Assembly: GCF_032854445.1 (NCBI RefSeq)
Contig: NC_088295.1
Location: 87,588,644-87,652,643 of the forward strand
Direction: 5' to 3'
DNA from: Liolophura sinensis
Taxonomy: Eukaryota > Mollusca > Polyplacophora > Chitonida > Chitonidae
Length of the DNA: 64,000 bases
Every line of letters starts with the position of its first letter. Positions within the stretch are counted from its first letter, which is position 1. Shown piece by piece: positions 17,494-57,963 of the stretch. The notes under the pieces are model-generated. The model was not told where the DNA came from, ran no database searches, and saw nothing but the letters and a program-made list of their open reading frames with translations. Both the position numbers and the translations under genes were made by a program.

Positions 17494-17857
17494 TTAGCGG
17501 GAATCACAGGAATCAGACTTAATGGGCGTCAAATAGGTGTCCCTTTTGTTTGGACAAGCGTCAGAATTGGTGGCCCTCACATTGCTGTAAGGACGTTTCA
17601 GGGTGGAATAGGTGTTAGAGGATGCATCATCAGCCACGAGACTCGAATACGTTGTGCTGTTTTCTTCTGAGTTCAAATACACATGGTCAGGAGGAGCGTT
17701 GTCGATCAGCTCATACTGGTGAATGTCGGTTTGCGCTGAGCTCTCGGGCTCGGGTGAGCCACTCTCGTCACTGACACACAACGCAGGCAACCCTCTCCTT
17801 GGCGGTGCAGTTGTAATCCAATCATGCTCTCTCACAGTACCTGGAGTTGATCTTCTT
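17494..17857 (-). CDS. terminal exon: cytoplasmic tail of EGF-repeat receptor, ITAM-like
   Basis: The exon follows an acceptor (TTCAATTACAG) and starts in phase 2, completing an AG|A codon with the transmembrane exon at 20992-21070. The joined protein reads ...FLWRRRRSTPG, a membrane segment followed by a basic stop-transfer. It ends at TAA (17496-17494) after about 120 residues. Tyrosine motifs are dense: YELI, VYLNSE (a YxN, Grb2-type SH2 site), TYSSL, TYSTL, PYSNV and TYLTPI. YSSL and YSTL are nine residues apart and fit an ITAM (YxxL-x6-12-YxxL), the signalling module that recruits Syk/Src-type kinases in phagocytic and immune receptors, including Draper. Frame, splice sites and join agree. 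The receptor role is inferred. Confidence 0.8.
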
Positions 17858-19079
17858 CTGTAATTGAACAAAAGTAATATTTCGTGTTGAAGTTGTTGTT
17901 TGGTGTAACTATTTACTTCTTTCCACGACTTTTCGTTCAGGTAGCAGGTATGCGTCGTTGCTCGTCTTGGCCCAATATAGAGGTTAAGACACTCTTCAAC
18001 GACATACCAGTACGACTTGTGCGCGCGAGCCAGGCGGTCTCGTGTCTTTGCGATGGAAAGATGTTAAGCATCTCGAATTACACTCGAGTTGCGCCCACCA
18101 AATAAATAAGACCAATGCTGTATTTTCATGAAGTCACCGACGATTATATACCAAGAATAACGCATAACAGAACGCTGTTTATATGTTTACAGCACGGAGT
18201 GAGCTGAAAAACTGCGGCACGCACGCAAAGTGCCATATGCATTAAATACATGCCCTTGACAAAATACGTTTTCTCGTCTTAATTAATAAACTTGTCCAAG
18301 AAAACTCTATACTTATGATAGACTATACTTATGAGTAGGCCGTTTTCCATTCTATTTCACATCCCAACAGATTACACCTCCAATTATAGACGAGGAAATG
18401 TAATACGAGTAAAAACTGCTGAGCTCATAAAATAAACGAGCAGGCGGCGCGAAAAATTCCACAGTTTATAGCACTGAATATACAGACTAAACTAGTGTAA
18501 CTGGGTGTAAATTATCAATTTTGAATGATTAATACTATCAAAAATTTACTAGAAAATGTGTAAGTGTTGGAACAAACCTAGTCCAGTACAAATTTGGAAA
18601 TTTGCAAATGTGTGTCAAATATCACAAATACTCATATATATCAAAGATACTCTTAACATGGGTGGCGTAAGAGTGAAAAAAGCCTTTTATTATTCATAAA
18701 AAGGTGAAATGTCAGGATTTTCTTGGCTGATAGGCGATATCTCCCTGGTTTGGTTACAGATCACATTTGTTATTACACACCCTGACGCCATCACGAAACA
18801 AGGAACATTTTGTTTGATGACGTTCCAATCCGAGTTCAGCGAAATGACGTCATAATACAGATTCGTTCAATTTTAACACTTCAACGGTCAAGGGACAAGA
18901 CACGATGTCACACAAGACGTCATGTGCGGCCTCACGATATTTCGCGTCTTCTAAGTTATCATTTTCACCTCCCACTCGAAATATATCTATGCTATTCAAC
19001 CTTTACTGTGTAATATCTTTCATTTATTCTAAACGTAATTACCATATCTCAGTTTGAATTTTTACCCTGAAGGACTAAT

Positions 19080-19420
19080 CAACAGCTGGAACCCTTGTAG
19101 ACTTGAGGTGTACACTTCAGTGTGAGGTATAGATGAGGTGTACCCCAAGTATACCTCAGCCATATGCATATAACTCAGGTATACCTCATAATACCTCAGG
19201 AACTCAGAACACTTTGAATATAGGATATGAATGTACCTCAGATACACCACAGCAACTTTGACCAAAAAAGATAAACACGAAGAAGATATACCTCAGGTAT
19301 ACCTAAAAAATTGGAAGGTTAAAAAAACATGAATGATGTACCTCAGGTACACCTTTGAGACTTGAAAGTTAAAAACATGAATGATGTACGTCAGGTACAC
19401 CGTTGAGACTTGGAAAGTTT
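19080..19420. repeat. degenerate array of palindromic ACCTCAGGT motifs
   Basis: The motif GTACCTCAGGTAC or TATACCTCAGGTATA (a palindrome around one central base) and shorter halves recur at least eight times. The right part (19320-19420) contains two copies of a ~55-base unit, AAACATGAATGATGTACxTCAGGTACACC. Confidence 0.7.
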
Positions 19421-19679
19421 TAAATTAAGGAATCAGTTTTAGACGTTTACTTGAAACAAAACGTTGACTACAAAAGTACAAATGTTTGTGCGTGTGCAAA
19501 AAAATGTTTATTAAATAAATACAAGCCTCACTCTGTACGGATTTTCCATTATTTGGCCAGTATTGACCAATCAGAGAGTGGGAATCTATTTCCCCTCGAT
19601 TATTTCAAGATGAGATTTACATATAGGCCTATAGGTATATTTATCAAAATAAAAGTTGAAACAGTGTGTTACATGTGCG

Positions 19680-20155
19680 CTCTACCACATGAAGCCTGTC
19701 TAATACGTTCTGCCACAAAAAGCCTGTTCAACACGCTCTGCCTCATTAACCCTGTCCAATACGCTTTGCCACACAAAACCTGTCCAATACGCTCTGCCGC
19801 ATGAACCCTTCCAATACGCTCTACCACATAAACCTTGTCTATCACGCTCTGCCAAATAATCCATGTCCCACACGCCATGCCACAGAAACCCTGTCCAATA
19901 TGCTTTGCCACATCAACCCTTCCATTACGCTGTGCCACATAAGCCCTCTCCAATACGCTCTGCAACATAAACCTGTCCAGTAAGCTCTACCATATAAATC
20001 CTGTCTGTCACGACCTACCACATAAACCCTGACTATCACGCTCTGACATATAAAACCCAGTCCTATACACTCTGCCACATAAACTCTGTTCAATATGCCA
20101 TGTCACGTGAACCCTGTCCAGTATGCTCTGCAACATGAGGCCCGTCAAATAGCCT
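19680..20155. repeat. minisatellite, ~29-base unit
   Basis: Around 16 imperfect copies of a unit like CCACATAAACCCTGTCCAATACGCTCTG. Unit length varies by a few bases and the copies are quite diverged, so the array is old or gene-converted rarely. Open frames on both strands across it are repeat artefacts. Confidence 0.85.
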
Positions 20156-20159
20156 ATTA

Positions 20160-20625
20160 ACCCTCTTCCATTCACCATGTCACATACGCCATGTTACATG
20201 TGTCATGTTCCAAAACCCTCTCCTACGAGGCATATCATACACGATGTTCCAAAAAAAACCTCTCCAACGAAGCATATCATATACGATGTTCCAAAAACCC
20301 TCTCCAACAAGCAATTTGATGTCCTACACGATGTTCCAAAAACCCTCTTCAAAAAAGTATATCATACACGATGTTCCAAAAAACCCCTCAAACGAAGCAT
20401 ACTATACACGATGTTTCAAAACCCCACTCCAACGAAGCATATACCAAACGATGTTCCAAAAACCCTCTCCAACGAAACATATAACATACGATGTTTTAAA
20501 ACCTCTCTCCAAAGAGGCATATCACAATCGATGTTCCAAAAATCTCTCCAACGAAGGATATCACACGCGATGTTCCAAACACTCTCCAAAGAAACATATT
20601 ACACACAATGTTCCAAAACAATTGG
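20160..20625. repeat. minisatellite, ~40-base unit, adjoining the previous one
   Basis: Around 11 copies of a unit like CATATCATACACGATGTTCC plus AAAAACCCTCTCCAACGAAG. It shares the phrase ACCCTCTCC-AA with the neighbouring array, so the two may share an origin. The two long plus-strand open frames here are repeat artefacts. Confidence 0.85.
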
Positions 20626-20991
20626 GTAAAACAAAGGCAAAGATGTTAACAGTAGTTTACGCACAGTTCTAGAATTACCCAGAAGCTGTGTACTTATTAC
20701 ATTTACTAAGCAAATAACATTAAAACAATGCAAAGCTATCAGACTTAGTCCGGATGCTTAGTCTGCCAGCTGAATCCTGCTTTATACAAGAAAACATTAT
20801 AAAAGAAAACAGCAAAAACAGCAAAACCAGAGCAGCGACCATAGTATGATAGTTGACCAATAGTTATACGTAAGCGGTAAATACGTTCACTTCTCAATGA
20901 TGTGTTAAATTAGACGTATTGGAAACAAATTAGTCTGTCTCCACTAATTTGACATTTATTCCAGCAGCGTACATTTCAGTGCGACACTTAC

Positions 20992-21070
20992 CTCCTCCAC
21001 AGAAAACCTGCCATGATGACCACTCCCAAAGCAATTCCTCCCACCGCGGTAACGTTAGGTATCCAGGCAG
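20992..21070 (-). CDS. transmembrane exon of EGF-repeat receptor
   Basis: A 79-base exon between acceptor (TATTTTAG) and donor (AG|GTAAG). In phase 1 it encodes A-AWIPN, then the hydrophobic run VTAVGGIALGVVIMAGFLW, then RR. The run is 19 residues with small and branched residues, typical of a single-pass helix. Its 3' phase (2) matches the tail exon exactly and extends the arginines. Its 5' phase (1) matches the donors of the linker exons and EGF exons. The agreement of phases over three exon types is the strongest evidence for one gene. Confidence 0.82.
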
Positions 21071-23925
21071 CTAAAATACGCATATACATGAATATCGAAA
21101 TACTGGCAACAATTCCATGGCCTATTTCAGCAGTATTATCAATCTATTGTTGCTACAATGTGTAATACTAACAAGCCTTTCAGTCCACATCTAGAGTCCC
21201 TCCATGGACATATGGTGAAACAATAAGCTGGTTTCGTGTTGCCAAAAGTTTTTCCTTAGAAGAAAAGACAACACAAGATTTATTACTTATAGGTGTCGAT
21301 TTCCCACATAAAATTGAAAAAGCATACCTTTTCATTTTTATACATCGATATATCGACGGTCAAAGTACATGTACATCGAGGACGTTGAGAAAATCGAAAT
21401 CATTGGCATATAACAGTTTTAACCAGTCAGACGGGAGTTATTTCTTTAACTCAGTCAGTGACGCAGTCTTTTCCGCTGACGTCACTCGAAAGCTGGTCAT
21501 GCATCCCATGGCCTCACAGGAATTAATGATCAAAAGTTTTAATTACAAAACACATTAGAAAAAATGCCTTAGGTGTGTTTCAAATATTCTTCCTAATAAA
21601 CTCTGGTTATATTATTTGTTTTTTTTTTCTGAATCCATAAAATCCATATCTCTGATTTCTTTGTAGTACAGTCATGAACTCTAGTGAATAAATTTATTTT
21701 GGATATAAAAGAACGATGTCACTATGGAAATTGGGTTGTTCTTTCAAAGAGAATTCGAATTCAGAGCTTTCTTTTTCCCACTGGAAACTCAGATTACTGA
21801 ATTTAAAACATAACATCTCCTGCTATATATAACAAGCAGAGGGACTGAACAATTAAAAGGTACATGTGGGATACAGTTATTCTTCACACTCTTAGCACAC
21901 CCAGAATAATATGTGTTACTGGGATGTTCTATTAGTTGCTCGATTTTATCAGTTGTTGCAGCGCTAAACCAGATATATTTTCGCCTGACAAGTTTGAGAT
22001 GTGGCCTTTCATGGGTGTCAAATCTAGATGTCAAAGTCTGTTCGATGTTCTGCTGCTCACATGTACAGGATCCGATTCACCTTCTTACCATGACAAGCCT
22101 TTTAAATATTGTGGACAAAACTTCAAATATTGTGGACAAAACTTCATATATTGTGGACAAAACTTCAAGTGTTGTATTAGACACCAGTGCCTGAGAATAG
22201 TTTTTTCCTTCATCTGGTTTAATTTGTTCCCCAACGGGTAATGGGACACTCAGCCCTGCGTCCTTTTCACAAAAAGTCTAAAAGCTTAGCTTAGTAAGCC
22301 GACTAGTAATTTTGCCTCGCCCGTTTCACGAAGAAAATATTTAACCATCGATTAAAACTTTTTGACTTACGTTCTGGAAAATTGACCAAAATCCTTAGTC
22401 ACGACAGAAATAAATTCAGCGTGCTATTCAAAACATTATCAGTCCCATTCTGAAAAAGTTAAAGTTTATTTAATGACTGACGACAGAAGGAATAAATCTG
22501 CAACTGTAGGCCTTTCAAAGCTCACAAATCACCAAATATCACGCGTTGTTGTTATTTTGCTTCGAATGTCTGTTGTGGGACTTATCGTCCCAAGCTTACA
22601 AACTTTCTCGAAAACGAAAATGGAGAAGAATTTATCATCTTGTTGCATTATTTATACATAGCAACTTCATTTATATATATCTGGAAGCAAATTTAACAAT
22701 TATCATCATGGATTCAATCATTCAGATTGCTGCAGAGCGCCCACATAGCCCGCTATGGTAATCCGGATTAGCTTTAGACAGTTTACGTTTGTGAAACGGC
22801 GTTGTCAGTTTGTTTTGTAGCCTGCTCCCGGTAGTCAGCTAAATGACCTCTAGTCGACTAACACGCCTTAACAGTACGCTAGCTTATACTGCACCTGGAT
22901 TTATTTTAAAGCTTGACATTTCGAGATAAACTAAGATGGTAAGTGTATGTAACATCGGTTGTACTATTCCAACTGTAATGGAATTCACAAAACCTTTGCA
23001 AACGTTAAAACAACGGAATTCTTACTACTCGATACGCGGTGAACTAAGTAAATGTCCAGTCGACCTTACCATTAAAGCTGACATGATCGGTTATTAGGTT
23101 AAAATATGATTTTCAAACCACAAAAAGGACCTGGAATGGTAAGGGGTGAAACTAGCAACTGTGCAATTAAACTGTGTTCCTCGAGAAGCCAAGCAGACTA
23201 TAGCAGTGTCTGACTGATGCTGACACCTTCGTAAGGCCACTTCTTTTTCATTTCTGTTTTACTTCTCTTTTCCTGCTGTATGGCAAGAGTGCAAGTTATA
23301 TATCTTAAAATACGCAGTGAAACAACTCTGTATCCGTGTTAGCAATGTATAGGTCAAAAAATGTCCAATCATATTTAATGTATTGTTTTTATATTAGACA
23401 CCATAGTGTGAATAAATAGCGTTGAGCCTCATGATGTGCCCTAAGCAGGATTCGCTTTTGATGTCGGTATAGTTGCCACATTTATGATGGAGGCAATGAG
23501 AATGTTCCGAGTAACCTGGTTAACTTTACCATTTGTCATACTGGTGGAGGGTATCGCACCAGATGGTTCCCTCGGCAACTTGCTGCCACCTTGAGACCAG
23601 TGGAAGCAGTGTATTTGAAAATTCGTCGTCCAACAATGAGGATATATACTCTTTCACAGGCGGTTTTACCAGGAAACCAAACACACAAGCTGGAATTACC
23701 TGTAATGCTCCACGAACAAACCCAGTCACTGTTAACTTAGAGATGGCTTTGTGTCAGTACATTTGTCATGTACTTGGCCAGGTGGCGGGTTACTTTGTGC
23801 TCTGCTTGTTAATTCTACCCACAAACCTGGCTCGTCTTCTGTCCTTTAAGTCAAATACATTTTAAAATCAACTAAAAATATCAATGATAAACAATTCATC
23901 GATTTTGTCAATTAGGTTGACTTAC
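21071..23925 (-). other. intron with source copy of a local duplication
   Basis: 21325-21625 is repeated at 24280-24583, and the part from 23391 on is repeated from about 24583. A 21-base unit (ATATTGTGGACAAAACTTCAA) occurs three times in tandem at about 22105-22168. No other gene is visible; a weak candidate linker exon at 23530-23589 is discussed under findings. Confidence 0.55.
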
Positions 23926-23961
23926 CGACACCACTACCAGAGGAAGGCCCAGGCACTGTTT
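23926..23961 (-). CDS. 36-base linker exon 3 (nearest the membrane)
   Basis: Acceptor TTTTAACAG and donor G|GTAAGT flank exactly 36 bases, phase 1-1, encoding ETVPGPSSGSGV when joined to a preceding G. It is a flexible Pro/Ser/Gly juxtamembrane stalk segment. It joins the transmembrane exon in frame (GTC G|CT GCC). Symmetric phase means copies can be added or skipped without breaking the frame. Confidence 0.7.
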
Positions 23962-24973
23962 CTGTTAAAAGAAATACAAGAAGGAAATCCACGAGTCAGC
24001 ACGATACGGAAATTTTTTTTTACGGAAATACGGTTAATTTTTGTTTTACTGCTCTTAAAATTGGAAATCAATTTAAATATGCCAAATTCCAATCGTTGAA
24101 GTAGCACTGCCTGAAGGTCAAACAACCAGAGAGACAAGCAGCAAAAAGATTGAAAAATACCTGTCCATGATGATTAAACCATAGAATTCCGGTGAAAGAC
24201 GTAAAACTGACAGGAAAAAACCTTCGATGCATGTACGATGTAATCTTCAATGTATTTTAATCAAACATTTTAAACAGCGTACCTTTTCATTTTTACACAT
24301 TGATATATTGACGGTCAAAGTACATGTACATCGAGGACGTTGAGAAAATCGAAATCATTGGCATATAACAATTTTGACCAATCAGACGGGAGTTATTTCT
24401 TTAAACCAGTCAGTGACTCAGTCTTTTCCGCTGACGTCACTCGAAAGCTGTTCATGCATCCCATGGCCTCATAGGAATAATTGATCAAAAGTTTTAATTA
24501 CTAAACACATTAGAAAAGGTGCCTTAGGTCTGTTTCAAATATTCTTCCTAATAAACTCTGGTTATATTATTTGTTTTTTTTTTATATTAGACAGCGTAGA
24601 GTGAATAAATATCACTGCACCAAAAATGTAACCTTCTGAAAAATTAAGCCGATAAGCAACAGCCAAATAACGTTGAGCCTCATGATGTGCTCTAAGCAGG
24701 ATTCTCTTTTGATGTCGGTATAGTTGCCACATTTATGATGGAGGCAATGAGAATGTTCCAGTAACCTGGTTAACTTTACCGTTTGTCATACTGGTGGAGG
24801 GTATCACACCAGATGGTACCCGTGGCAACTAGCTGACCAGTGCTTGTTAATTCTGCCCACAAACCTGACTCGTCTTCTGTCCTTTAAGTCAAATACATTT
24901 TAAAACGGCGTAAAATCAACTGAAAATATCAATGATAAACAATTCATCGATTTTGTCAATTAGGTTGACTTAC

Positions 24974-25009
24974 CGACACCATTACCAGTGGAAGGCCCAG
25001 GCACTGTTT
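24974..25009 (-). CDS. 36-base linker exon 2
   Basis: Same length, phase and splice signals as the exon at 23926-23961; it encodes ETVPGPSTGNGV. It lies in the duplicated copy of the same ~1-kb segment, so it arose by tandem duplication. Three differences change residues (S to T, S to N), while reading frame and splice sites are kept. Confidence 0.68.
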
Positions 25010-25371
25010 CTGTTAAAAAGAATTACAACAAGGAAAGTCACGAGTCAGCACGATAAGGAAATTTTTTTGGAGTTAATTTGGAAATCAATTTAAATATGCC
25101 AAATTCCAATCGTTGAAGTAGCACTGCCTGAAGGTCAAACAACCAGAGAGACAAGCAGCAAAAAGATTGAAAAATACCTGTCCATGATGATTAAACCATA
25201 GAATTCCGGTGAAAGACATAAAACTACTTTGACAGGAAAAAACCTTCGATGCATGTACGATGTAATCTTCAATGTATTTTAACCAAACATTTTAAACTTT
25301 TGAATGTGCGTAAATCATGTAAATAGATAAAGATAAACGATCCATGATGAATGTCAGTTAGGATGACTTAC

Positions 25372-25407
25372 CGATGCCATCCTCAGTGGACGGACCAGGC
25401 ACGGTTT
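25372..25407 (-). CDS. 36-base linker exon 1
   Basis: Donor CG|GTAAGT and acceptor TTAACCAG flank 36 bases, phase 1-1, encoding ETVPGPSTEDGI. It is the most diverged of the three linker exons, and its flanks match the other two only near the exon, so it represents an older duplication. The acceptor polypyrimidine tract is weak. Confidence 0.62.
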
Positions 25408-25543
25408 CTGGTTAATACAAACAATTACTGTCACGCATCACCACTATGGGGGAATACTCAGCAAGGTACATGATTTACATTTTTCAATATGTTAATTCAC
25501 CGTAAAGGGCACAACAACATTGTTAACATTCACTTTCCTCAAG

Positions 25544-25727
25544 AGTGAGTGAGTGAATGCTTGGGGTTTAACGTCATACTCAACAATTTTTCTGTCATAT
25601 GACGACGACGGAATCATTAGGGTGCATGTACGTGTAATGTGCCTCCTTGTTGCAGGACGGATTTCCACCGCTCTTTTGTTTAGTGCTGCTTTACTGAGAC
25701 GACTTACCGAAGGCAAGTCGAATCAAT
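25544..25727 (-). mobile_element. SINE family 3, partial (tail and body)
   Basis: GAGTGAGTGAGTGAATGCTTGGGGTTTAACGTC followed by the ATATGACGACG and GTGCCTCCTTGTTGCAGGACGG body. The same order appears at 46295-46610 and 56697-57032, which extend to a tRNA-like head. The head is missing here. The orientation is minus because the tRNA-like promoter end lies to the right. Confidence 0.7.
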
Positions 25728-25949
25728 AAAGACTGTTGGACAAACTAAACTGAACCGATTTTTTAAACCAAATTATCATTTATCCCGAAACTAAAATGCT
25801 TAAAGTTAATGTACAAATGATCTCTATAAAACTGAGGTAACATCAACCTCTCATTGATTATATTAAACCACGGAGCCTTCGCGCCCAAGAAGTTAACGTG
25901 CTAGCTAAAAGCACAATAACCCAGGCGCCGCCCACCTATGCAGTCACCC

Positions 25950-26035
25950 TGATTTCAAGTCCAACCCATGATGACTTCCTTTCCGGTATGTGGGATGGTC
26001 GTCGAGCAACCTGCGGATGGTATCATCTTTGCCAA
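25950..26035 (+). mobile_element. SINE family 1, internal fragment
   Basis: TTTCAAGTCCAACCCATGATGACTTCC through CAACCTGCGGATGG matches the region after box B in the full copy at 34784-35048, with substitutions. Flanks 25728-25949 and 26036-26509 hold nothing recognised. Confidence 0.5.
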
Positions 26036-26509
26036 GTTGAATAGGATCATAATAAACTGCACTGTAATTCGCTCTAATTTTTATACTCAAGAATGTGTTT
26101 GGAAGCCTTGTAATAGTTTAATGAATTGTCGTACTGGGCATTTTCCTTTAACACACAACAGTTTTTTCAAAAGTTTGCTACTCCCAAACGCATCTTCGAT
26201 AGGCATTGCCTTGTATCATATAATACAGTTTTTATAATGTGTAATGGGACATGCATGAACTGGAACTATGCTCGACTAAGTATGCCCAGCTGACGTATAC
26301 TGGCAAGAGGCCGTGTTTTAACCAGTGACAATTTGCCGACTGTAACACTGTCATCACTTCTCTGGTTTTACTCCGCGTATGCGCTTTAAATCTTTAATTA
26401 TCTTGACAATAAAGCTACGGTACACACTATTTAGACAGGCTGATGTAAAAGACATCTTATAATCAGATTTTATAGGATACTAATAATACTGTCAGGGAGG
26501 TGGCTGTAT

Positions 26510-28000
26510 CATAAGCATCAGAAAAATGGTTCTGTCGTCAAAATGCAATCTCTATTGTCAAACAAGTTACTTTGCCATGGGCATAAAACAGATGACTGTG
26601 TCGTTCAGATACAATATTTCCAGGCAGGTGATATTGATAAATATGAAAAGACAGTTGAGTAGTACGGTTAATGACCCGATAGCTAAGTAGATGATATTGT
26701 GTCGTTGGCATCATAAAGACGGCCATGCCTTACCTCTCCATACGTATCGGTTGTTTCATTTAAATACAACTCAATGCATTTAACTAATTCTGCTTACACC
26801 ATGCTGCTTGTGGGGTGTAAGTTGCTACTAATTAAGCATTTACGTGACCAGAAAGAATAACTGAGGTAGATTGACTAAAGAGGTCAAATTGATGACTGTG
26901 CCATGCGCATCAGAAAGATGGCTATGTTGTTTGAATGCTGACTATTGTCAAGTAGGTGACCTTACCATGGACACCAGAAAGATGGCCATGTTGTTTGAAT
27001 GCTGACTGTTGTCAAGTAGGTGACCGTACCACGGACATCAGAAAGATGGCCATGTTGTTTGAATGCTGACTATTGTCAAGTAGGTGACCGTACCATGGAC
27101 ATCAGAAAGATGGCCATGTTGTTTGAATGTTGACTATTGTCAAGTAGGTGACCGTACCATGGACATCAGAACGATGGCCATGTTGTTTGAATGCTGACTA
27201 TTTTCAAGTAGGTGACCGTACCATGGACATCAGAAAGATGGCCATGTTGTTTGAATGCTGACTATTGTCAAGTAGGTGACCGTACCATGGACATCAGAAA
27301 GATGGCCATGTTGTTTGAATGCTGACTATTGTCAAGTAGGTGACCGTACCATGGACATCAGAAAGAAGGCCATGTTGTTTGAATGTTGACTATTGTCAAG
27401 TAGGTGACCGTACCACGGACATCAGAACGATGGCCATGTTGTTTGAATGCTGACTATTTTCAAGTAGGTGACCGTACCATGGACATCAGAAAGATGGCCA
27501 TGTTGTTTGAATGCTGATTATTGTCAAGTAGGTGACCGTACCATGGACATCAGAAAGATGGCTATGTTGTTTGAATGCTGACTATTGTCAAGTAGGTGAC
27601 CGTACCATGGACATCAGAAAGATGGCCATGTTGTTTGAATGCTGATTATTGTCAAGTAGGTGACCGTACCATGGACATCAGAAAGATGGCCATGTTGTTT
27701 GAATGCTGATTATTGTCAAGTAGGTGACCGTACCATAGACATCAGAACGATGGCCATGTTGTTTGAATGTTGACTATTGTCAAGTAGGTGACCGTACCAT
27801 GGACATCAGAAAGATTGCTACGTTGTTTGAATGCTGACTATTGTCAAGTAGGTGACCGTACCATGGACATCAGAAAGATGGCCATGTTGTTTGAATGCTG
27901 ACAATTGTCAAGTAGATGACCGTACCATGGACATCAGAAAGATGGCTAGGTCGTCTGAATGCTGACAATTGCCAAGTAGGTGAATGTGCCACTGGTACGA
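26510..28000. repeat. 64-base minisatellite with decayed edges
   Basis: About 17 regular copies of a 64-base unit (GACCGTACCATGGACATCAG / AAAGATGGCCATGTTGTTTG / AATGCTGACTATTGTCAAGT / AGGT) run from about 26899 to 27985, with 1-4 differences per copy. Left of it, 26510-26740 contains strongly diverged units (CATCAGAAAAATGG, CATAAAACAGATGACTGTGTCG, CATCATAAAGACGGCCATG). A homogenised centre and decayed edges are expected from unequal exchange. It lies in an intron of the receptor gene. Confidence 0.9.
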
Positions 28001-29082: not shown

Positions 29083-29202
29083 CTGAACAGCTGTTCCCAT
29101 CTCCAGTAAATCCGACTTTACATTTACAGCTGTAACTACCAGGTACATTCATACAAACAGCACTGGGAGAGCAGGCTCCAGCATCCGTACACTCATCCAC
29201 AT
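29083..29202 (-). pseudogene. EGF-like exon with intact frame but destroyed splice acceptor
   Basis: The 120-base frame encodes a calcium-binding EGF domain (DVDEC start, six cysteines, C-M-N-VPGS-Y-S-C hydroxylation-type motif, FTGDGNSC end) and has a good donor (CAG|GTAACT). The acceptor reads TTTGCAC instead of the TTTGTAG seen in its paralogue at 38805-38924. No alternative in-phase AG lies nearby. With AC it should be skipped; its 1-1 phase makes skipping harmless to the frame. Confidence 0.75.
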
Positions 29203-30308: not shown

Positions 30309-30426
30309 CTGCACACACGATCCCATTCCCTTTAAAACAAATTTACAGTTACATTTATAACTTCCGATTGTATTGACACATCAGCATTATCTGAACAGGG
30401 TGAAATGCCATCACATTCGTTTCTAT
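30309..30426 (-). pseudogene. EGF-like exon, frameshifted and without donor
   Basis: It aligns with the intact exon at 40780-40899. It differs by two single-base deletions (one in the GCTGA-TGTGTCAAT segment, removing a cysteine codon) and by a donor changed from G|GTAAGT to G|GGAAGT. The acceptor CATTTCCAG is kept. The exon is dead on both counts. Confidence 0.8.
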
Positions 30427-44734: not shown

Positions 44735-45200
44735 CCATCAGAACTGTCATCATTACAGAGGTAGTTAACTCACTCAAACACTCCCCGTTAGTCAGCGTCA
44801 TCAGTGTATAACCATCAGGACAGACATCACTAGAGTGGTAGATAACTCACTCCCAGACTCTATGTTAGTCAGTGTAAACCCTACAGGACAGTCATCACTA
44901 CATTGGTAGATAACTCACTCACACCCTCTGTATTAGTCAGTGTTATCAGTGTATACCCATAAGTACAGTCATCACTACAGTGGCAAATAACTCTCCCGCA
45001 CACTTCCCGTTAGTCACCGTATACCCGTCAGGACAGTATTGACTTCAGCGATAGATAACTCACCCACTCACTCCCCGTTAGTCAGTGTATGTCCATTAGT
45101 ACACTTATAACCAATAGCGGTAGATAACTCATCCACACCGCCGCAGATACTCAGTGTAATCAGTGTTTACCCACTAGGACAGTGTTTGGTTATCTACCGA
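44735..45200. repeat. minisatellite built from an EGF exon end plus splice donor
   Basis: Seven units of 67-79 bases. On the minus strand the consensus unit reads C-S-D-D-C-PDGYTLTNGECVG, then a GTGAGTTA donor, then a short intron piece, then the next unit. Two length classes differ by a 9-base repeat of CAGTGT. It recurs at 55990-56405 and 34660-35110. Most units have lost cysteines or the donor, so it does not look translated. Confidence 0.75.
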
Positions 45201-46290: not shown

Positions 46291-46294
46291 TGCA

Positions 46295-47720: not shown

Positions 47721-47723
47721 TCT

Positions 47724-47795
47724 ATGGACGAGTCCTGGGCGCGCAGGAAAGGGACTCGCAAGCTCGTCCCTTTCCGGCACCCAGGACGAGTCCAT
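47724..47795. repeat. strong hairpin (imperfect inverted repeat)
   Basis: The left arm starts ATGGACGAGTCCTGGG and ends GGAAAGGGAC; the right arm is its inverse, starting GTCCCTTTCC and ending CCCAGGACGAGTCCAT. The loop is about 10 bases (TCGCAAGCTC) and the arms are about 30 bases with a few mismatches. The block is GC-rich in AT-rich surroundings, 170 bases downstream of the recombinase stop codon. Confidence 0.8.
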
Positions 47796-47967
47796 AAAAG
47801 ACCATACAATCCAATAACCTATTTATTATACACCCACTTGTCAAACACGTAAGTAAATAAGCTCGAACGCTAAACAGATTGGGTAAAACCGTGCTAATTA
47901 TTTCATATCGCGTAACAATAGCGGATAACCGGTTGCGGATGAATATGGAATACTGAATGGAGCACTT

Positions 47968-48597: not shown

Positions 48598-49453
48598 AAA
48601 GTAGTCCGTACGTCTGACGTCACAGTTACAACTGTCCAGTATATTAAAAATATTAGACAGTTGTGTTTACTACATAATATAGTAGGCGCTGGACACTTAA
48701 GTGTATAATAAATACATTTATAATCCGGAAAGTTAGCTTTAATCTCGGATAAAAACTTATAAACTACATGTATAAGAGTGACTTGATGTCATGTGTTTAC
48801 GTAGATACATGTTACTTTAGTTTTCAGGGAAAACCGATGTAGGGGTGTAGACACAAAAAAACACCATATACAATCGTCGAAATTAGAGAAACATTAAACA
48901 CCGATCACTGATTAGTGTAGTCAAACAACACGGCATACCTATTTTCTTTTTTCACAAGATTCCACATAAGATGGGCAAATGAGTAAATAAAATTAACACT
49001 GTTAAAATTTAGAAATACGTTTGATTTAAAATATTAGGGATTTTAGGACGGCCATGTTTCATTTATGCAAATTAGGCTGTGCTCCACTTCTTAGATTTTG
49101 GTAGACCTTTAACAAGTCATTCTGGATATCTCTGAGAGATATGCCTCCAAAACAAATTCTTTTGCAGTTTGTGGTCAGCTAAGCCAATTTTCGTTTTATC
49201 TTGGCTGGACTAGTTGACAGACAAGACAGATATTCTGTGAAAGATAATTATTTGTGCTATTCTAAAATAGCAACAAAAATTCCGTTGGGTTTTGGCAGCT
49301 GATCGATCTTTTGACAAAAAATATCCGTTATAGGCTCATTTCAAAGCACTGTGCGGCCTGAGACATTCCGCGTGTGTCAACCTACAGTTTTCACATTACA
49401 TTGGCTGGTGTCATTTAGAAAGTGGTTTTTAGGAAAAAGATTTTATAATCGTA

Positions 49454-49594
49454 TTTTCCAGCAACCTGCGGATGGTCGTGGGTTTCCCCCGGGCTCTGCC
49501 CGGTTTCCACCCGCCATAATGCTGACCGCCGTCGTATAAGTGAAATATTTTTGATTACGGCGTAAAACACCAATCAAATAAATAAATAAGTAAA
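49454..49594 (+). mobile_element. SINE family 1, 5'-truncated, with 11-base target duplication
   Basis: It begins at TTTTCCAGCAACCTGCGGAT, with the head missing, and ends in an AAATAAATAAATAAG tail. TTATAATCGTA flanks both sides (49443-49453 and 49595-49605), evidence of target-primed integration on the plus strand. Confidence 0.85.
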
Positions 49595-49609
49595 TTATAA
49601 TCGTAATTA

Positions 49610-51190
49610 GGATCGCACTTTCTGGACTTAGCACAGATTCTGGCGTTGAAAAGCGACTAGTCCTGGGAGCCGTTCCGTTTCGGAGCCATAGAAGTGATGT
49701 TTAACATTCAGCTACTCTTCTTTCTGTTGGGAACCTGTTAATTGAATGGTCTAAACTGTTGGCATGTATTGTTAGCCAGGTGTCTGAATTTGTAATCGCT
49801 GAATCCAAAACCCGATTTTTGCATCAGCCAAGTTTAGTCTTTTTCAACTGTCTGTAAAATCAGCCATATCCGCTACCACAATTGTCTTCAGTCAGCGACA
49901 AGCTCTACACATGAATATGTTTGAAGTTCATAACCTTTCTAGGAAAATGAAGCTAGAACACTTTCTTTTATTCGTAACGTTAAAGTCCATAAGCTTAGTT
50001 TCGATGGCATAAATCAATTGCCGCGGATGACGTTACAATTAATAAAAAAACCAGTAGCATGATGGGTATTGGGCGGAGTTCAACCCTGTTTCTGACACTG
50101 CCACATTTGAAATCGTTTGCACGTTTTAATATAATATAACATTAATAACTGAATTTTACTTTATGTCTTGTAGTATGTGATCTCACGACAGTATAGTTTT
50201 AGAGATGGATATTAGGAAATTAAAGGGATCTACTTATTCGCACAGACAGTAGTGTAGGCTGTGTTATTGCATGGAGTTTGTTCAAACCGCTTTTTTATGC
50301 AACCATTGTAAAACAAATTACTCTCCACGCTTATTGTCCAGCATGCAACTTGTTTTTTAAAAATTATGACGTCACCTGAGGCAATGAGTTCTTGGTGTCG
50401 AAACTGAGCTTATGGACTTTAATATTATGAGCTGAAAAAAGTGTTCTGACTGCAATTTCTTTGTAATAATATGGACGTTCAACATGTCAATGTGTAGAGC
50501 TCTGGTTGTTACGTGACACTGGCTAAAGGCAATTTTGGTAGCGAGTATAACTGATTTTACAGGCACCTGAATCGAGATCGCGACTTATCTCTCATCGACA
50601 TGTTGGCGATGTTCCTCATTACATATGAACTGCATGATAATGTTTCGTTATCATGCACGTGCAATTCGCCGATGACACAATCTTTACACATAAGGGGCCT
50701 AGAATGGAACATATTCACAGCTGCACACCGCCTGTAAACAAACCGTATATCATATGCATGTTGACACGTGGGCAGTATATAAGACATTTCAGCTATGTAT
50801 CTTACCTTATCTGATTTCATGCAATGAGTAATATACCTAAACATGGAGCATTACACGCACACATATAACGGTGTATATAAACCATTTCTGTATATGTGTA
50901 CGTGTAGAAATGTAGTCACCTCACCCACACATACTCTGTTAACTCTGTTCCATCTGTAACACGTGAAAAACTCTTTCCAGCATGTGAATGACACTGGTCA
51001 ATTCTGACACAGCCTTAAACCACACAGAACCTGGTTGCACTCATTTATGTCTCAAACATACAAGACATTCATTGTAACCATTAACATACAATCTGAAAGC
51101 CGCCACAGTAGTTTCTGTTAACCAGTTATTATATGGCTAAATTAGACCTCTGCCCGAAACAGCACCATTATCTTAGCGGTTAAACATCAG
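49610..51190. repeat. duplication block III, left part
   Basis: 49610-50560 repeats at 58015-59040 and 50580-50700 at 59285-59400. 50740-51190 matches 31250-31640, 41740-42130 and 59510-59970. No intact coding sequence is inside. A dead type C exon lies at 50925-51048. Confidence 0.8.
50925..51048 (-). pseudogene. dead EGF-like exon, type C, copy 3
   Basis: Same origin as the copies at 31435 and 41907. The acceptor region reads GAC with a 2-base loss in the ATATAAATGAG start, and the cysteine pattern is broken. Confidence 0.7.
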
Positions 51191-51403
51191 GTCCTCTATC
51201 AAAAGTTGAACACCACCCCCAAAAGCGTAAGAGGGAAGTGGGTGGGAAGGGGGGGGGGGGGGTGGAGTAATGATTTTCTTGCATGTATGCACGTGCGTCC
51301 ACGTAACAGTCTAAGGGAAATATCGAAGACAATCATTTCCTCGTTATTTCTATATTGGAGTCAACCATTTCTACATCTACGTGCAGGAGTCTAGCCAACT
51401 CAC

Positions 51404-51529
51404 CCACACACGCTGCGTTAAAACCGTTCCGTCTGTATCCCGTGACACATTGGTACAGACATGTGAATGACCCCACAGAATTCTGACACACCCTTAAGCC
51501 ACATGGGCCCTCATCGCACTCGTTTATAT
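51404..51529 (-). CDS. EGF-like exon E of receptor
   Basis: 126 bases, phase 1-1, acceptor CATTTCAG, donor GG|GTGAGT. It encodes DINEC, CGLR-x-CQN, the hydroxylation motif C-Q-N-SVGS-F-T-C, then C-VTGYRRNGFNAAC: six cysteines, with C4-x3-C5 rather than the x1 of exons A' to B'. This spacing (CLYQC-xxGY) occurs in EGF domains of fibulin/uromodulin-like and related proteins. It is the live relative of the five dead type C exons. Confidence 0.82.
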
Positions 51530-52854
51530 CTGAAATGATGAAACATACAGATCATTCACTGTAATATACCATACAACCTACAAAGCCGCAGTAGCAATCT
51601 CTATATATAACCCATAATTATTTCGGCAAATCAGACATCTGACCCTAACAATACTTGCGTGCACTTTTAAATTTTCTAAAAAATTTGGATACTTGTATCC
51701 ATTCTTGCTTCATAGATAACACATTATCTCGGTCATGAGTACATTTACTTTCAGTAACAAAAATCGGCAATACATGCAGATACAGTAAAAATGTTATGAT
51801 TAGTCTGAGATATCACAAAAAATACTAAGGAGATAAATGTTTTATACTTCACATCCAAAGTCCTCCTCTTATATCTCAAACGTTTGCTGTTAAAAATTAC
51901 TAGTGTTTTTCACAAATAAATCAATCAATATCGGTTGGAATTTTTTCATCGATTATATAAATTTAAGCAATTCAGTAACGTTTAACAGGTTCTGCTGCAG
52001 ATCTGAGACAGAAAAAAGCCACACTGGCTAACCAGATAAAACAGATAACACGTACAAAGCCGAGACTGATATTTTGTGATAAGTAATTATTTGGTTTATT
52101 CTAAAATAAAAGAAAAACTTTCAGTAGGATTTGGGCTGATCGATGCTTTGCCAAAACTCACCGTTTTCAGCATCACACTATTAAAAGGGCGATTGACAAC
52201 TTGTTTGGGAGTCTCAACAATAATTGTGTTTAATAATGATCACAACGAACTATAAGTAATTATGGTGAAAAAAAGATGATCTGAATTATCAAAATAACCT
52301 ACCGAGTCTACCGTATGCCCTTGCTAGCAAAGAAGTTATTTGAAAATGGCGTTTTTAGAAATTTGGTTACTGTCCGAGTGGGTGCGCCAGTTATATTTGT
52401 GTCAATTACGACGTTATGGTCTTTTTTGTTACCGCATAATGAAGTGATATCAGTTCAGAAATGCTTTAAAATCACGGAAAACCAGTTTTCGTTACGTACA
52501 GCTTTCACACTTTGAGGACAACAGGCAACAGGGTCGAGTACCAGGTTTGTGAAAGTAAAGATTCAGACCGGTTAATGAGGAAGCTAGGAAGCTAAGCTGG
52601 GAGTATGGCCGACCGATCCCAGGCCGATCTCCTAGTGCTGAGCGCTATTGTTAGTGTTCTATGGCGCCGGCGGAAATCCCCGACCACCTGCAGATTCCGA
52701 CATGAATAAACATGAAAGTGCGTTTACCCACTATCAGTTTTTAAAGTTATTTAAAATTTATATTTATTTATTCATTTATATGGCAAACAAACATACAAGA
52801 CATTCATTGTAACCATTAACATACAACCTAAAAGCCGCCACAGTAGTTTTATTT
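51530..52854. other. intron, no gene seen
   Basis: AT-rich; a G-run lies at 51250-51261 left of the exon. Parts resemble 46980-47290. 52620-52850 resembles 61410-61700. A 66-residue frame at 52315 has no supporting feature. Confidence 0.5.
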
Positions 52855-52859
52855 ATTTC

Positions 52860-52995
52860 ATTTATTTGATTGGTGTTTTACGCCGTACTCAAGAATATTT
52901 CACTTATACGACGTCGACCAACATAATGGCGGCCGGAAGCCGGGCAGGGCCCGGGGGAAACCCACGACCATCCGCAGGTTGCTGCAGGACCTTCC
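52860..52995 (-). mobile_element. SINE family 1, 5'-truncated (block III copy of shared insertion)
   Basis: TTTATTTGATTGGTGTTTTACGCC through CATCCGCAGGTTGCTGCAGG. It sits at exactly the same position as the SINE at 61703-61842, between CCACAGTAGTT and a decayed repeat of it (GCAGCAGTTA). Confidence 0.8.
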
Positions 52996-52999
52996 CCCC

Positions 53000-55680
53000 G
53001 CAGCAGTTACTGTCAAACCAATTATTATATGAGAAAATTAGACCTCTGCTCGAAACAATACCTTATCTTAGCGGCTAAGCATGTTATCTGCGAACACTGG
53101 AACCCCAGTGTTTCTGGCAGAGGCCATCCAAAAATGGCGAGACACAATATGGGCGTCTCAAGTCTGTGTGTGAATGTGTGTGATTTGTCTGAAACAATCA
53201 AACGTTTATAATCCATCAAGATATTTACATATGTTTAGTTTGTTTGAAATTCATGTTTCCATGTATATTACTTTGACACTATGGAGAATATTGTCGACAA
53301 TATTTTATCACGGGTAATCAAGGTATCAAGGTAACCCCTCTAGAGCCTCTCACACTGGTTTCCCAGGCCCTAATCCTTCATCTACACCGTTACAATAGTG
53401 TGAGACTTCAACGCATTTCAAAAGTGTTGTAAATTGTAGTAAAGCTGTTGCAATCAATTGCATTTCATGTCAACTTTATAATCCTGCCATTTGTTTACAA
53501 AGTTCCCAGCACGTGTGAAATGCTGTATGGCCCAAGGTGACCTGCAGGGAACATGTAATTTCTGTCGCCATGTGAGACTGCCCTGAACAGATGGCAGTAC
53601 ACGCACTATACCTCGTCTCTCACACAGTTTGGAGCTGGCGATTAGTGTTGAATGATTAGTGCCTTCTCCCCGCCGAAACACAAAACACAGTCTCTTTGCA
53701 TTATTAGGCTTCATGTAGGTAATGGTTGAGAAGCTAAGCCGGATAACCGGATGGTTTGGAAGCTAATCCGGTGTCAGGTTAGCGAGAGTGATGTTCGAAG
53801 ACTTCCCGACCAGTCACACCTTTATTTTTATTTATGAATTATAATGAAGAAAGAATCAAGCGGCAGTTGTTACAAACCTGTAAATTCCAAAACTGTCTCA
53901 AATCATGATCCTGTCAAACAAGCAAGCTAATGACTGCTTCTCTGATTGTCTTAAGCTTACTAACTACATTACATTATACGGGGGGAAAGTGTTGTCCGTT
54001 TACAGACCCAGAAATAGATGTAACAATTAAATCATTAAATGCTTTTCACTCATAAAGATCTGACTGACAAGTATGTGTTGTCAAGCTCGCTTAAAATGCA
54101 GTGAACTGTTTTGCAAGCATCACGCACCTGTTGTTTCGTAACAAGGTAGTCCAGACAGTTTCAGTTCTCGTTTTCATAAATGGCGATCATAAACCCAACG
54201 TCCATCGGTCGAACACTGTCTTCGCATGTGTGGAACTGAACACCTTCACACTATACCCATTAGCAGCTTCATATTACAACATATTTTAAACATTGTTTTT
54301 GTGCAAGGCTATTTCCATTCCATGTCATTTCTGGGAGCGACATGTATTTGTATTTATGCATCATAAATGAATGGATGATATTTATATGGGAGGTATATAA
54401 AGGTATATATAACCATTTAGGGTGTAAAGTCTCTTTTCGCTGAGAGTCTGCCATTTTTGGTGTGCAGACGTATGCTTCGTATCAAAATGGTGGAAACTGT
54501 CTAACTATTGGGCAGCTATGAGTTTTAATTTTGAAGGTTTGAAACTCTGGGCGAGAGGACATCAGAGTATAGGTGGTGATGACGCTGTGAGTGACGTCCG
54601 CTTGGTGTTGCTGCGATTTAATTCAGGCCTACAACGTTTCCATGGGTTAGATGTTATATTACATATTATAGGGCTGAATGTTACATTTGTTATATATTTA
54701 TTTAACTGACTGTTGCATAACTACGTGCTCAAGAATTTTTCAGAAAGTTACATTTGTGGCACATCCATTGTCACAGCATCTACAGTGTCGAATGCAAAAG
54801 AAAAGATATTTCAGTGTAACTGAAGCCGGCTACAATTTTCCGATTGTATGACCTGTGCGTCGCTTCAGTGCATGCTTGGAGGTTTGCAAGTCGCATGCTA
54901 GTCATATAACTGGAAAAGAAGAGTAAAACAGAACTGGAAAAAGAAGTAGCCTTACGAATGTGTCAGTACCTTTGACTTACACTTTTGACTTACACTGAAC
55001 ACCTTCACACTATACCCATTAGCAGCTTCATATTACAACAAATTTTAAACATTGTATTTGTGCAAGGCTATTTCCATTCCATGTCATTTTCTGGGAGCGC
55101 ACAACCACGTGTACGTAAATGTCTTATATGTAACTGACAGAGTACAAAATTCAACATTAACCAATTAGATGAACTTATTTTGATTGGCCCGCTCCTTGTA
55201 ATAATGAGTCGTTACTATTGCGAAATTTCTCGCCAAATCTATACTAGCAGACAGGAGTTTTCACTTGACACACTTTCACGTGAACAGTGATGAGTCTGCG
55301 CATTTTCTGGAGACTTTGCTTTTGACTCTGGTACAAAATCATTTAGATCCATTTTGAGTGGAGCCATCTTGTGTACATAGAGTCATGCAAATGTAACACA
55401 GTGATATTCACGACACATTTAATCCATTTACCGCGCTAAGAATTGAAAATAATTACCAAAACAACACGTGGTCCGATTAGTCTCTGCAGTGATTGACGGG
55501 CCCCACAAACAATGTTGGAACTTCAAAGGCTATATCCAGAGCTGTGCAAAGTTGCGATTTGCATATCAATACAACTCGGCTGTTTATATTTGATTACCAT
55601 TAGACAGTTCTAAACTGACACTCACCGAAATTTACACAGACTGAATGCTATTGTTAGATTATCAGAGCCTACATTTGTAA
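53000..55680. repeat. duplication block III, right part
   Basis: It matches 31640-34370 (without the LTR), 42110-43970 and 61850-63570. It is interrupted by a private 660-base insert (54339-54998) flanked by a 105-base direct repeat. No coding sequence is recognised. Confidence 0.8.
54234..55103. repeat. 105-base direct repeat flanking a 660-base insert
   Basis: 54234-54338 (ACACCTTCACACTATACCCA onward to TTCTGGGAGCG) is repeated almost exactly at 54999-55103. Block IV has it once (62876-62983). The insert between them (54339-54998) is related to 60780-61140 elsewhere in block IV. A plus frame at 54518-54709 lies inside it with no known match. Confidence 0.75.
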
Positions 55681-55996
55681 ATACACTGGAGAAGGCATTC
55701 TTATGGATGTACAACTTCTTGGTTTATTTAACACAACGTTTCGATGCAGTTACTAGCATCGTTATCAAGTGAATGACATCAAAATTACTACTGCGCTTAT
55801 ATATAGCAAGAGATGCAAATGTCAACAGATAAAACAAAAAGAGGAGGGTAAACAGTGCTCAGGGGATTAAGGTGTCCTGGGGTGGGTGTTGGCGTACTGA
55901 CTAGGCTCGGTGGGGTTCCTGAGCGGTTTGGAGGATTAGCAGATCATAAGCTGAGGGGAGGTAGATGCCGTGATCTCTGTTCAGGCTGGGCTTTAA
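55679..55996 (-). mobile_element. retroelement 3' fragment with hammerhead-like core (possible Penelope-like)
   Basis: On the minus strand the segment reads ACTTGATAA, then CGATGC-loop-GCATCG, then AAACGTTG, and further AATAAACCAAGAAGTTGTAC. The 6-base perfect stem followed by GAAAC is reminiscent of the stem II core of hammerhead ribozymes found in Penelope-like elements, though the usual CUGAUGA is imperfect. The insert replaces about 750 bases present in block II (43973-44725). The family name is a guess. Confidence 0.35.
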
Positions 55997-56405
55997 GAAT
56001 TACGGTACCCATCAGAACTGTCATCATAACAGAGGTAGTTAACTCACTCAAACACTCCCCGTTAGTCAGCGTCATCAGTGTAAACCCTACAGGACACTCA
56101 TCACTACATTGGTAGATAGCTCACCCACACACTCTGTGTTAGTCAGTGTTATCAGTGTATACCCATCAGTACAGTCATCACTACAGTGGCAAGTAACTCT
56201 CCCGCACACTCCCCGTTAGTCACCGTATACCCGTCAGGACAGTTTTGACTTCATCGATAGATAACTCACCACTCACTCACCGTTAGCCCGTGTATGTCCA
56301 TCAGTACACTTGTAACTAATAGCGGTAAATAACTCATCCACACCACCCCCGATAGTCAGTGTAATCAGTGTATACCCACCAGGACAGTGTTTGGTTGAGT
56401 TATCT
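55990..56405. repeat. exon-derived minisatellite, second array
   Basis: Six units of the array at 44735-45200 in the same order, with one unit fewer and partial loss of the donor in some units. It is a duplicate of that array. Confidence 0.75.
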
Positions 56406-56696
56406 ACCCATGTAGTTACGATTCTTCATAAGGTATTCTATTAATTTTTCCCTTGTTTCAGATATCATATAATTCGTCGATAATACAATCGTTTCATTGG
56501 CTCACAACAGCCCACGTTAGTTAGCAGGGTTCTTAAACCCGATAACTTAGAATCTTTAATCATCAATGATTTTGAAGTCATCAATTATCACTCAATAATA
56601 AAAAGTATGGAATGTGTATATTTCGTTCAAAAAGATATAGAAAGGTCTATACATGTTCCATTATCCTTAGCCCACATAGCTCACATCCTGTGTGGA

Positions 56697-57032
56697 GTGA
56701 GTGAGTGCTTATGGCTTAACGTCGTATTTAACATTCAGTCATATGACAAGGGAGTCCTTAGAGTGCATGTATCTGCAATGTGCCTCCATGTTGCAGGACA
56801 CTTTCCACTTCACTGAGGCGACTTACTGAAGGCAAGTAAGTCCACCCACCCGAGTCATTACACTGATATGGGTCAACGAGTCGTTGCACTAACCACTTAA
56901 GGCTGAACGCCAAGCGAGAAAGCTACAACTTCCCGTTTTAAGGTCTTAGGTGTGTCCGACCCAGGGTTGACCCTGACCTTCTACTGCCCCTGAATTGGAC
57001 GGTCTACCAACACAGCCATCGTAGCCGGTAAT
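56697..57032 (-). mobile_element. SINE family 3, near complete (duplicate of 46295-46610)
   Basis: Same element in the same flanking context as 46295-46610. The tRNA-like end reads CCGGCTACGATGGCTGTGTT on the minus strand. A few differences include the CATGTTGCAGGACA variant. Confidence 0.75.
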
Positions 57033-57831
57033 TACTGTATGGGATAACTCATCTATTATGCCTTTTCAAGCTATCCAAAGCGCACTTTCCACACCATCAC
57101 TTTCTCTAGTAAGAGGATACAATGTACTCTAATTCTTTAAATGTTACATCGCTTCTATCAGACATTTATATATATCGGACCACCAGTTTTCTTGACACAT
57201 TTCATAAGGCAGCCCACATGCATGTATTATAGATATTCTGTTCAAACGGTCTCTTTATATCCTTCACATAGAACTGACGTGTCACTGCATGCGATTGAAC
57301 TTAAGTGATCGCATCAAATGATGTAGATAGTCCTCCGAAGTCAGAGCCTGCTGTTCTAAATTTGTTCTCAAACCCTTGCTACAGTCTGACTGAATAGAAA
57401 AAACTATTACCACAGACAGCCCGCCTATAAATAAACTGAACATCGTATCTTATTGCACAGTTTGTCACAAGGGCAGCAATTTGCGAATATCGCCTATGTA
57501 TAATGTTATATCTCATTTCACACATTTGTGTATCATGGCTAAACATAAGGTGTTATGAATGCTCTGTGGGTAACTGTGTTCCATGCACCCCGAAATACTC
57601 CTGCATGAATTATTGCTATACTGAAGAATTATGCAGCGTTAAAGAGACATGAATTGATAAAGAGTAAAAAATGTCTCTAGGCACGTGCAACCTGGATATA
57701 TGTAACACTGCAAGGAAAACTTAACAGTAAGCTATTTCTGTGTAGGAGTCAACCATTTCTATGTAGGAGTCATATTTTTCTATGTCGGAGTCAATCATGT
57801 TAATATACCTGTGGGAATGTAGCCAACTCAC

Positions 57832-57963
57832 CGACACACGCTAAGTTACCACTGTTCCATCTGTATGTGTAACCCGTGATACACTCAGACAGACATCTGT
57901 ATGACCCTGGAGTATTCTGACACTTTCTGAGGCCACACGGATGCTGCTCGCACTCATCTATAT
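57832..57963 (-). CDS. EGF-like exon E' of receptor (most upstream seen)
   Basis: 132 bases, phase 1-1, acceptor TGTTTCAG, donor CG|GTGAGT. It encodes DIDEC (a perfect calcium motif), CGLRKC, the hydroxylation motif C-Q-N-TPGS-Y-R-C, then C-ITGYTYRWNSGNLAC: six cysteines with the same C4-x3-C5 spacing as exon E and a two-residue-longer last loop. The phase 1 acceptor shows more coding exons must lie upstream, beyond base 64000, including the signal peptide. Confidence 0.82.

Follow-up and report, generated by a model that had tools for sequence, protein, structure and literature searches.

A probable multi-exon receptor gene with EGF repeats

The window analyzed here is a 64,000-nucleotide stretch of the Liolophura sinensis genome (C1:87588644-87652643, on contig NC_088295.1), and its subject is a gene for a predicted membrane receptor with epidermal growth factor (EGF) repeats, hereafter gene 1. 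Coordinates follow window numbering, with values above 64,000 or negative lying outside the window, and the genome searched comprises 609 Mb in 632 contigs. The original observation of a ten-exon receptor gene is confirmed: a splice-context search recovered all ten minus-strand exons with GT-AG sites and compatible phases, joined in one frame of 389 residues with no stop. Five six-cysteine EGF exons, three 36-base linkers, a transmembrane (TM) exon, and a tail exon were each located (Table 1). EGF exons and linkers are phase 1-1, the TM exon is phase 1-2, and the tail begins in phase 2. The gene continues past the window, with two intact EGF exons upstream (66273-66142 and 70315-70196). From splice sites, phases, and copies in the genomic sequence, on which all gene models here rest, the ten exons are probably the 3′ end of a single gene, gene 1, that encodes a type I receptor. 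This receptor would have seven or more EGF_CA modules (two of them from beyond the window), Ser/Pro linkers that may be optional, a single membrane helix, and a tail of 120 residues whose six tyrosines may dock SH2 proteins.

Modules were assigned to EGF_CA (Pfam PF07645) on the basis of six cysteines, a D/N-x-D/N-E-C calcium-binding start, and a score above the Pfam cutoff. When the spliced protein was checked for domains, as had been proposed with the original prediction, EGF_CA matched at 1.8e-36 over five stretches, and all five EGF exons taken singly exceeded the 27-bit cutoff. Cysteines 4 and 5 are separated by three residues in EGF1 and EGF2 and by one in EGF3, EGF4, and EGF5. A six-cysteine pattern scan, which does not cover C4-x3-C5 modules such as EGF1 and EGF2, returned four canonical EGF bodies (three used, one decayed), one unrelated plus-strand match, and matches within an (ACAG)n repeat; 20 mononucleotide shuffles gave two matches in total. 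The five window modules match EGF_CA and EGF_3, with no laminin-type EGF family listed up to E 1, and EMI was not among the Pfam families listed for seven sequences, all of which lack the N-terminus. Among the best 60 of 68 matches to solved structures, the EGF array came closest to uromodulin, NELL2, ADGRE5, and Notch; fibrillin ranked further down.

The TM exon was placed by splice signals together with a hydropathy scan. Its hydrophobic helix lies between the EGF array and the tail and is followed by a basic RRRR, the arrangement of a type I receptor. A hydrophobic stretch at 20.85 kb was dropped as a TM exon; the chosen exon has an acceptor, a strong donor, and fitting phases.

Support for the order of these exons comes from a paralogue on contig C13. 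A genome search with the tail, in which only the best candidates were scored, gave four matches at three places: the window, an inverted copy on C1, and C13. The inverted copy (C1:87581734-87582083) is broken by a 10-base deletion. The C13 tail is intact and 63% identical to that of gene 1. Within the 40 kb of C13 that were read, the order on one strand matches gene 1, with the tail, a TM exon sharing 77% identity with that of gene 1, a single linker-like match, and nine EGF bodies, one of them incomplete; EGF4 has five copies there, each with AG and GT sites. Alignable DNA between C1 and C13 is ~77% identical, repeats included. Because C13 repeats this order with a similar TM exon and tail, the EGF, TM, and tail exons of gene 1 appear to belong together, and the predicted single-pass EGF receptor is well supported.

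The linkers rank 1, 3, and 8 among 1,063 short phase-1 minus-strand candidates by a crude, self-written splice score. Linkers 2 and 3 lie in one 489-column duplication (87.7% identical), and linker 1 aligns to the surroundings of both (112 and 124 columns, 76-77%). Since they are duplicated among themselves, the three are not independent evidence. Being phase 1-1, they could be skipped with the frame kept.

The cytoplasmic tail

The TM exon plus tail matched no Pfam family above cutoff and no solved structure at E 10. The original prediction described the tail as resembling an immunoreceptor tyrosine-based activation motif (ITAM), citing YSSL-x9-YSTL and four further tyrosine motifs. All of these are present. 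The consensus ITAM is YxxL/I-x6-8-YxxL/I; gene 1 has no pair at spacing 6-8 and one at 9. The pair is not conserved, as C13 has YSSP and YFTL at the matching places. Conversely, C13 has one ITAM-type pair at spacing 8, YELI-x8-YVDL; the matching stretch of gene 1 reads YELI-x8-YLNS. When all residues except the tyrosines were shuffled, a pair spaced 6-12 arose in 2.4% of shuffles for gene 1 and 3.6% for C13. A conserved ITAM was rejected after the C13 comparison, with the pair sitting at different tyrosines, and the ITAM reading of the gene 1 tail is therefore weak. Motifs common to both type-1 tails, as we call tails of this kind, are YELI, YxTL, YxNV, and YLTP. A multi-tyrosine, putatively SH2-docking tail is the safer description.

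In pattern scans of three tails (gene 1, C13, and gene 2, introduced below), none contained NPxY, an immunoreceptor tyrosine-based inhibitory motif (ITIM), or an immunoreceptor tyrosine-based switch motif (ITSM).

A second gene with similar EGF exons and an unrelated tail

About 120 kb upstream on the same strand lies gene 2, whose TM exon forms one open frame with its EGF exons and tail (Table 1). The block holding EGF4 and EGF5 is 93.8% identical between the two genes over 3,097 columns. Blocks with EGF3, EGF1, and both beyond-window exons are 85-88% identical to gene 2, and the EGF2 block only 73%, so that six of the seven gene 1 EGF exons fall in shared blocks of 85-94% identity. The last EGF exon of gene 2 is outside any block shared with gene 1. 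At the 3′ ends (TM exon and tail), comparison of the two genes gave no blastn or tblastx match at 1e-3. The gene 2 tail holds YDTL-x12-YNHL, the one pair of this type, with none at spacing 6-8. One copy of the tail, on the opposite strand at C1:87835914-87836471, is open, 97% identical, and accompanied by a TM exon; another, at C1:87532919, is broken. Both tail types thus occur within ~300 kb on C1, and the type-1 tail is also on C13.

Two tails on one kind of ectodomain is the more interesting feature of this locus, and it lies partly outside the window. As in paired receptors, closely similar ectodomain modules are joined to unrelated tails. The opposing ITAM and ITIM signals of such pairs were not found, given the absence of ITIM and ITSM patterns from the three tails.

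Table 1. Exons of gene 1 and gene 2 and decayed or repeated EGF sequences (window coordinates)
Feature	Position	Strand	Description
Gene 1 EGF1 exon	57963-57832	-	EGF_CA variant, C4-x3-C5 (CLSEC), phase 1-1; Pfam EGF_CA 1.3e-08 alone
Gene 1 EGF2 exon	51529-51404	-	C4-x3-C5 variant, phase 1-1; EGF_CA 1.4e-08; similar exons on C13
Gene 1 EGF3 exon	40899-40780	-	Canonical EGF_CA, phase 1-1; EGF_3 1.5e-11, EGF_CA 7.4e-09
Gene 1 EGF4 exon	39820-39701	-	Canonical EGF_CA, phase 1-1; EGF_CA 2.4e-10
Gene 1 EGF5 exon	38924-38805	-	Canonical EGF_CA, phase 1-1; EGF_3 9.2e-12, EGF_CA 5.5e-09
Gene 1 linker exon 1 (ETVPGPSTEDGI)	25407-25372	-	36 bases, phase 1-1; from splice context, use putative
Gene 1 linker exon 2 (ETVPGPSTGNGV)	25009-24974	-	36 bases; inside duplication shared with linker 3
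Gene 1 linker exon 3 (ETVPGPSSGSGV)	23961-23926	-	36 bases; from splice context
Gene 1 TM exon (VTAVGGIALGVVIMAGFLW, then RRRR across junction)	21070-20992	-	Phase 1-2; splice signals and hydropathy scan
Gene 1 cytoplasmic tail exon	17857-17494	-	TAA stop; six tyrosines: YELI, YLNS, YSSL, YSTL, YSNV, YLTP
Gene 2 EGF exons	162.4, 156.9, 149.9, 147.7, 146.8, 145.2 kb	-	Six exons
Gene 2 TM exon	142426-142351	-	In one open frame with EGF exons and tail
Gene 2 tail exon	141743-141185	-	186 residues, nine tyrosines
Decayed EGF5 copy	29083-29202	-	Body open, acceptor AG to AC; block 81% identical
Decayed EGF3 copy	30309-30426	-	Net 2-base deletion, donor GT to GG
Minisatellite-like array	44735-45090	-	Unit ~77 bp; apparently from 3′ half of C-x3-C EGF exon

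Selection on tail and EGF exons

Comparison of the gene 1 tail with that on C13 gave 18 synonymous and 51 nonsynonymous changes (synonymous divergence, dS, 0.258; nonsynonymous divergence, dN, 0.213). The tail exon carries one gap, of 3 nt, and the other four gaps of the block measure 5, 5, 2, and 1 nt. Elsewhere, 64 of 563 windows about as long kept frame, a rough figure because these windows overlap and include repeats. All six tyrosines are kept between the two tails. Of 20,000 neutral simulations, 12% were free of stops, 4% retained the six tyrosines, and 0.7% combined the two. Given the gap pattern and these simulations, the frame and tyrosines of the tail seem constrained and the rest fast-changing. 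Against the broken C1 copy, the tail shows 10 synonymous and 14 nonsynonymous changes (dS 0.136, dN 0.054).

Nine EGF pairs were computed in one set, of which five were not pooled: one involved a decayed copy, and the rest reused sequences of pooled pairs. For EGF exons in five chosen pairs within C1, the pooled dN/dS was 0.37 (Fisher p 0.008). Since a different choice of pairs changes the pooled result, the EGF exons are likely, but not proved, to be under constraint.

Duplications, repeats, and neighboring sequence

Self comparison showed much of the locus to consist of segmental duplications. Candidate EGF exons were excluded at 29.1 kb (acceptor lost), at 30.4 kb (frameshift and lost donor), and for the C-x3-C copies at 31.5, 42.0, 51.0, and 59.8 kb, which have an in-frame stop or frameshift and a lost cysteine. 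The ~77-base arrays at 44735-45090 and 56007-56226 seem to be repeats of the 3′ half of a C-x3-C EGF exon, and EGF-like fragments such as CSDDCPVGFTLT and SSDVCPDGYTLMTLTNGECLSEL are tied to the former.

A codon-level scan of the duplicated region (3,384 alignments) gave 175 windows at p<0.002, uncorrected for many windows. These were for the most part repeats, EGF4, and a small number of conserved frames that are unexplained, including ones near 35.9/41.7/220.7 kb and 43.0/219.5 kb, and the scan led to no new domain. Frames with MVFFLINLD and PKLSQI (~35870 and 41669, minus strand; 42970, plus strand) have more synonymous than nonsynonymous changes between duplicated copies (8:2, 7:3, and 6:2), which may be chance among many windows.

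Other repeats in the window include an almost pure (ACAG)n array of ~490 copies at 2989-4951, open in all six frames, and a 64-base unit repeated 17 times with 94% likeness at 26893-27983. Mobile elements may also be represented. A minus-strand open reading frame at 47968-48666 matches Phage_integrase (PF00589, 2e-08) and is perhaps from a tyrosine-recombinase transposon, with similar DNA near 158.6 kb and 223.5 kb. Plus-strand matches to reverse transcriptase and RNase H at 9557-9910 and 10637-11173 are perhaps retrotransposon remains. Flanking the window, two similar 394-residue open frames, perhaps of an intronless membrane receptor, lie at -29510 to -28329 (plus strand) and 116607-117788 (minus strand); their likeness and opposite orientation suggest a large inverted duplication around the cluster. 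Elsewhere, further dense EGF_CA clusters occur at 70.6-78 Mb on C1 and 8.8 Mb on contig C8 among the 150 of 1,496 candidates that were scored. Contig C8 also carries eight hemocyanin beta-sandwich domains (PF14830) side by side, all above cutoff, which mark the animal as a mollusc; a count of eight fits a gastropod-type hemocyanin.

Weighing the readings

Several points weigh against gene 1 as part of a working type I receptor gene. No gene start, first exon, or signal peptide was found. The step from EGF5 to linker 1 covers 13 kb and is a predicted junction, and the single linker-like match in the C13 stretch has no acceptor AG, so the linkers may be dispensable. In gene 2, one exon has a GC donor. 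The C1-C13 tail comparison shows no significant synonymous excess (p 0.32), a near-neutral rate. Among EGF exons, EGF1 and gene 2 EGF1a differ by 1 synonymous and 11 nonsynonymous changes, and the EGF1 copy at 66 kb and EGF1a by 1 and 12; swapping EGF1-EGF1a in for both within-gene EGF1 pairs brings the ratio to 0.51 (p 0.07), and a comparison of EGF4 with one C13 copy puts it at 0.48 (p 0.20). Every one of these selection tests could be skewed by conversion between copies. Decayed EGF copies also lie amid intact ones at six places in the window (29.1, 30.4, 31.5, 42.0, 51.0, and 59.8 kb).

Those six places, the two broken tail copies (C1:87581734-87582083 and C1:87532919), and the near-neutral tail would all be expected if gene 1 were itself a decaying member, its EGF and tail exons being remnants of a once active cluster that makes no functional protein. 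We consider this improbable, as all ten exons are intact with their splice sites and the frame and tyrosines are kept against C13. We likewise doubt, to a similar degree, that the product is an adhesion or matrix receptor like other EGF_CA-array proteins, with a tail for anchoring or endocytosis in place of immune-type signaling. YxxPhi is a sorting motif, two motifs like it are conserved (YELI and YxTL), and the array resembles those of the proteins named above. Against this, a structural protein would not usually show such quick divergence of its tail or copies that arise and decay in tandem.

A true ITAM receptor of the Draper/MEGF10 kind, in which a Src-family kinase phosphorylates YSSL-x9-YSTL, a two-SH2 kinase (Syk/Shark) binds, and engulfment follows, is a somewhat better candidate, though still unlikely. 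The motif is present with spacing 9, such a pair seldom arises by chance when the tyrosines are fixed, an ITAM-like pair occurs once in each intact type-1 tail, and gene 2 has YDTL-x12-YNHL. The pairs of the two paralogues nevertheless occupy different tyrosines, YSSL being YSSP on C13. Gene 1 is like Draper, CED-1, and MEGF10 in being single-pass with EGF-like repeats and a tyrosine-bearing tail. As far as the excerpted text of PMC8092387 goes, Draper combines an EMI domain with NIM repeats, CED-1 carries EMI and EGF-like domains, and NPxY occurs in all three receptors, whereas gene 1 has EGF_CA modules and no NPxY; kinship with this family is thus unsupported. Within the family, passages of PMC4503800 distinguish Draper-I from Draper-II by whether the tail signal is ITAM or ITIM.

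Proposed mechanism and meaning

For gene 1 as a type I receptor with a multi-tyrosine tail, ligand binding and clustering would lead a Src-type kinase to phosphorylate the tail, and the kept tyrosines suggest that SH2 proteins could then dock. Phosphorylated YxN is a Grb2-type docking motif and phosphorylated YxxP a Crk-type one, so YxNV may recruit a Grb2-type and YLTP a Crk-type adaptor. Because the two type-1 tails share YELI, YxTL, YxNV, and YLTP, adaptor and cytoskeletal signaling seems more likely than Syk recruitment through a classical ITAM. EGF cassettes may have duplicated through phase-1 introns, which would have coupled similar recognition surfaces to two different signaling tails. 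The best reading of the cluster is that of fast-changing receptors whose ectodomain cassettes appear common to two signaling tails, as in CEACAM1/CEACAM3, with a putative signaling function.

Comparable arrangements are known on other folds. In the excerpted text of PMC7026191, CEACAM1, CEACAM3, and CEACAM4 have related ectodomains with ITIM, ITAM-like, and ITAM tails, respectively, and evolve fast; the ITAM form is given as YxxL-7-YxxI, and origin of CEACAM3 by duplication and recombination of the CEACAM1 IgV exon with the CEACAM4 gene is judged plausible. The chiton cluster shares the related ectodomains and different tails, but the CEACAMs, as described there, are primate proteins with immunoglobulin ectodomains and a phagocytic function. 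Another case, among invertebrate receptors, is the Botryllus fester co-receptor (FcoR) family; its members differ in which tyrosine signaling motif they bear, hemITAM or ITIM (portions of PMC12065747). Unlike the chiton genes, these tunicate receptors are described with immunoglobulin/Sushi ectodomains and alternative splicing between motifs; here two unrelated tails sit on separate genes with no ITIM pattern. Uromodulin, NELL2, ADGRE5, and Notch share the chained EGF modules of gene 1 but have no similar tail. A literature search of Creative Commons-licensed PubMed Central papers yielded no paper recognized as describing a receptor of the gene 1 type. The proposal of a lineage-specific receptor finds partial support, in that intact type-1 tails occur at two places only among the best candidates scored, in a comparison confined to this one genome.

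A bolder and tentative extension, which we hold to be possible though rather doubtful, is that the cluster is an EGF-based mollusc counterpart of vertebrate paired receptors. Its EGF recognition cassettes would be kept alike by duplication or conversion and linked through phase-1 introns to a pair of membrane-and-tail cassettes unrelated to each other; one ligand could then feed two signaling routes, with the fast turnover typical of immune or allorecognition genes. Were the product an adhesion protein only, the locus would still be a clear example of exon cassettes that duplicate, arise, and decay. If the cluster works as read here, a paired-receptor design with rapid turnover would have arisen in a mollusc on the basis of EGF modules, separately from its immunoglobulin, lectin, and Sushi forms, and the cluster would offer a concrete locus for asking which receptors mollusc blood cells use.

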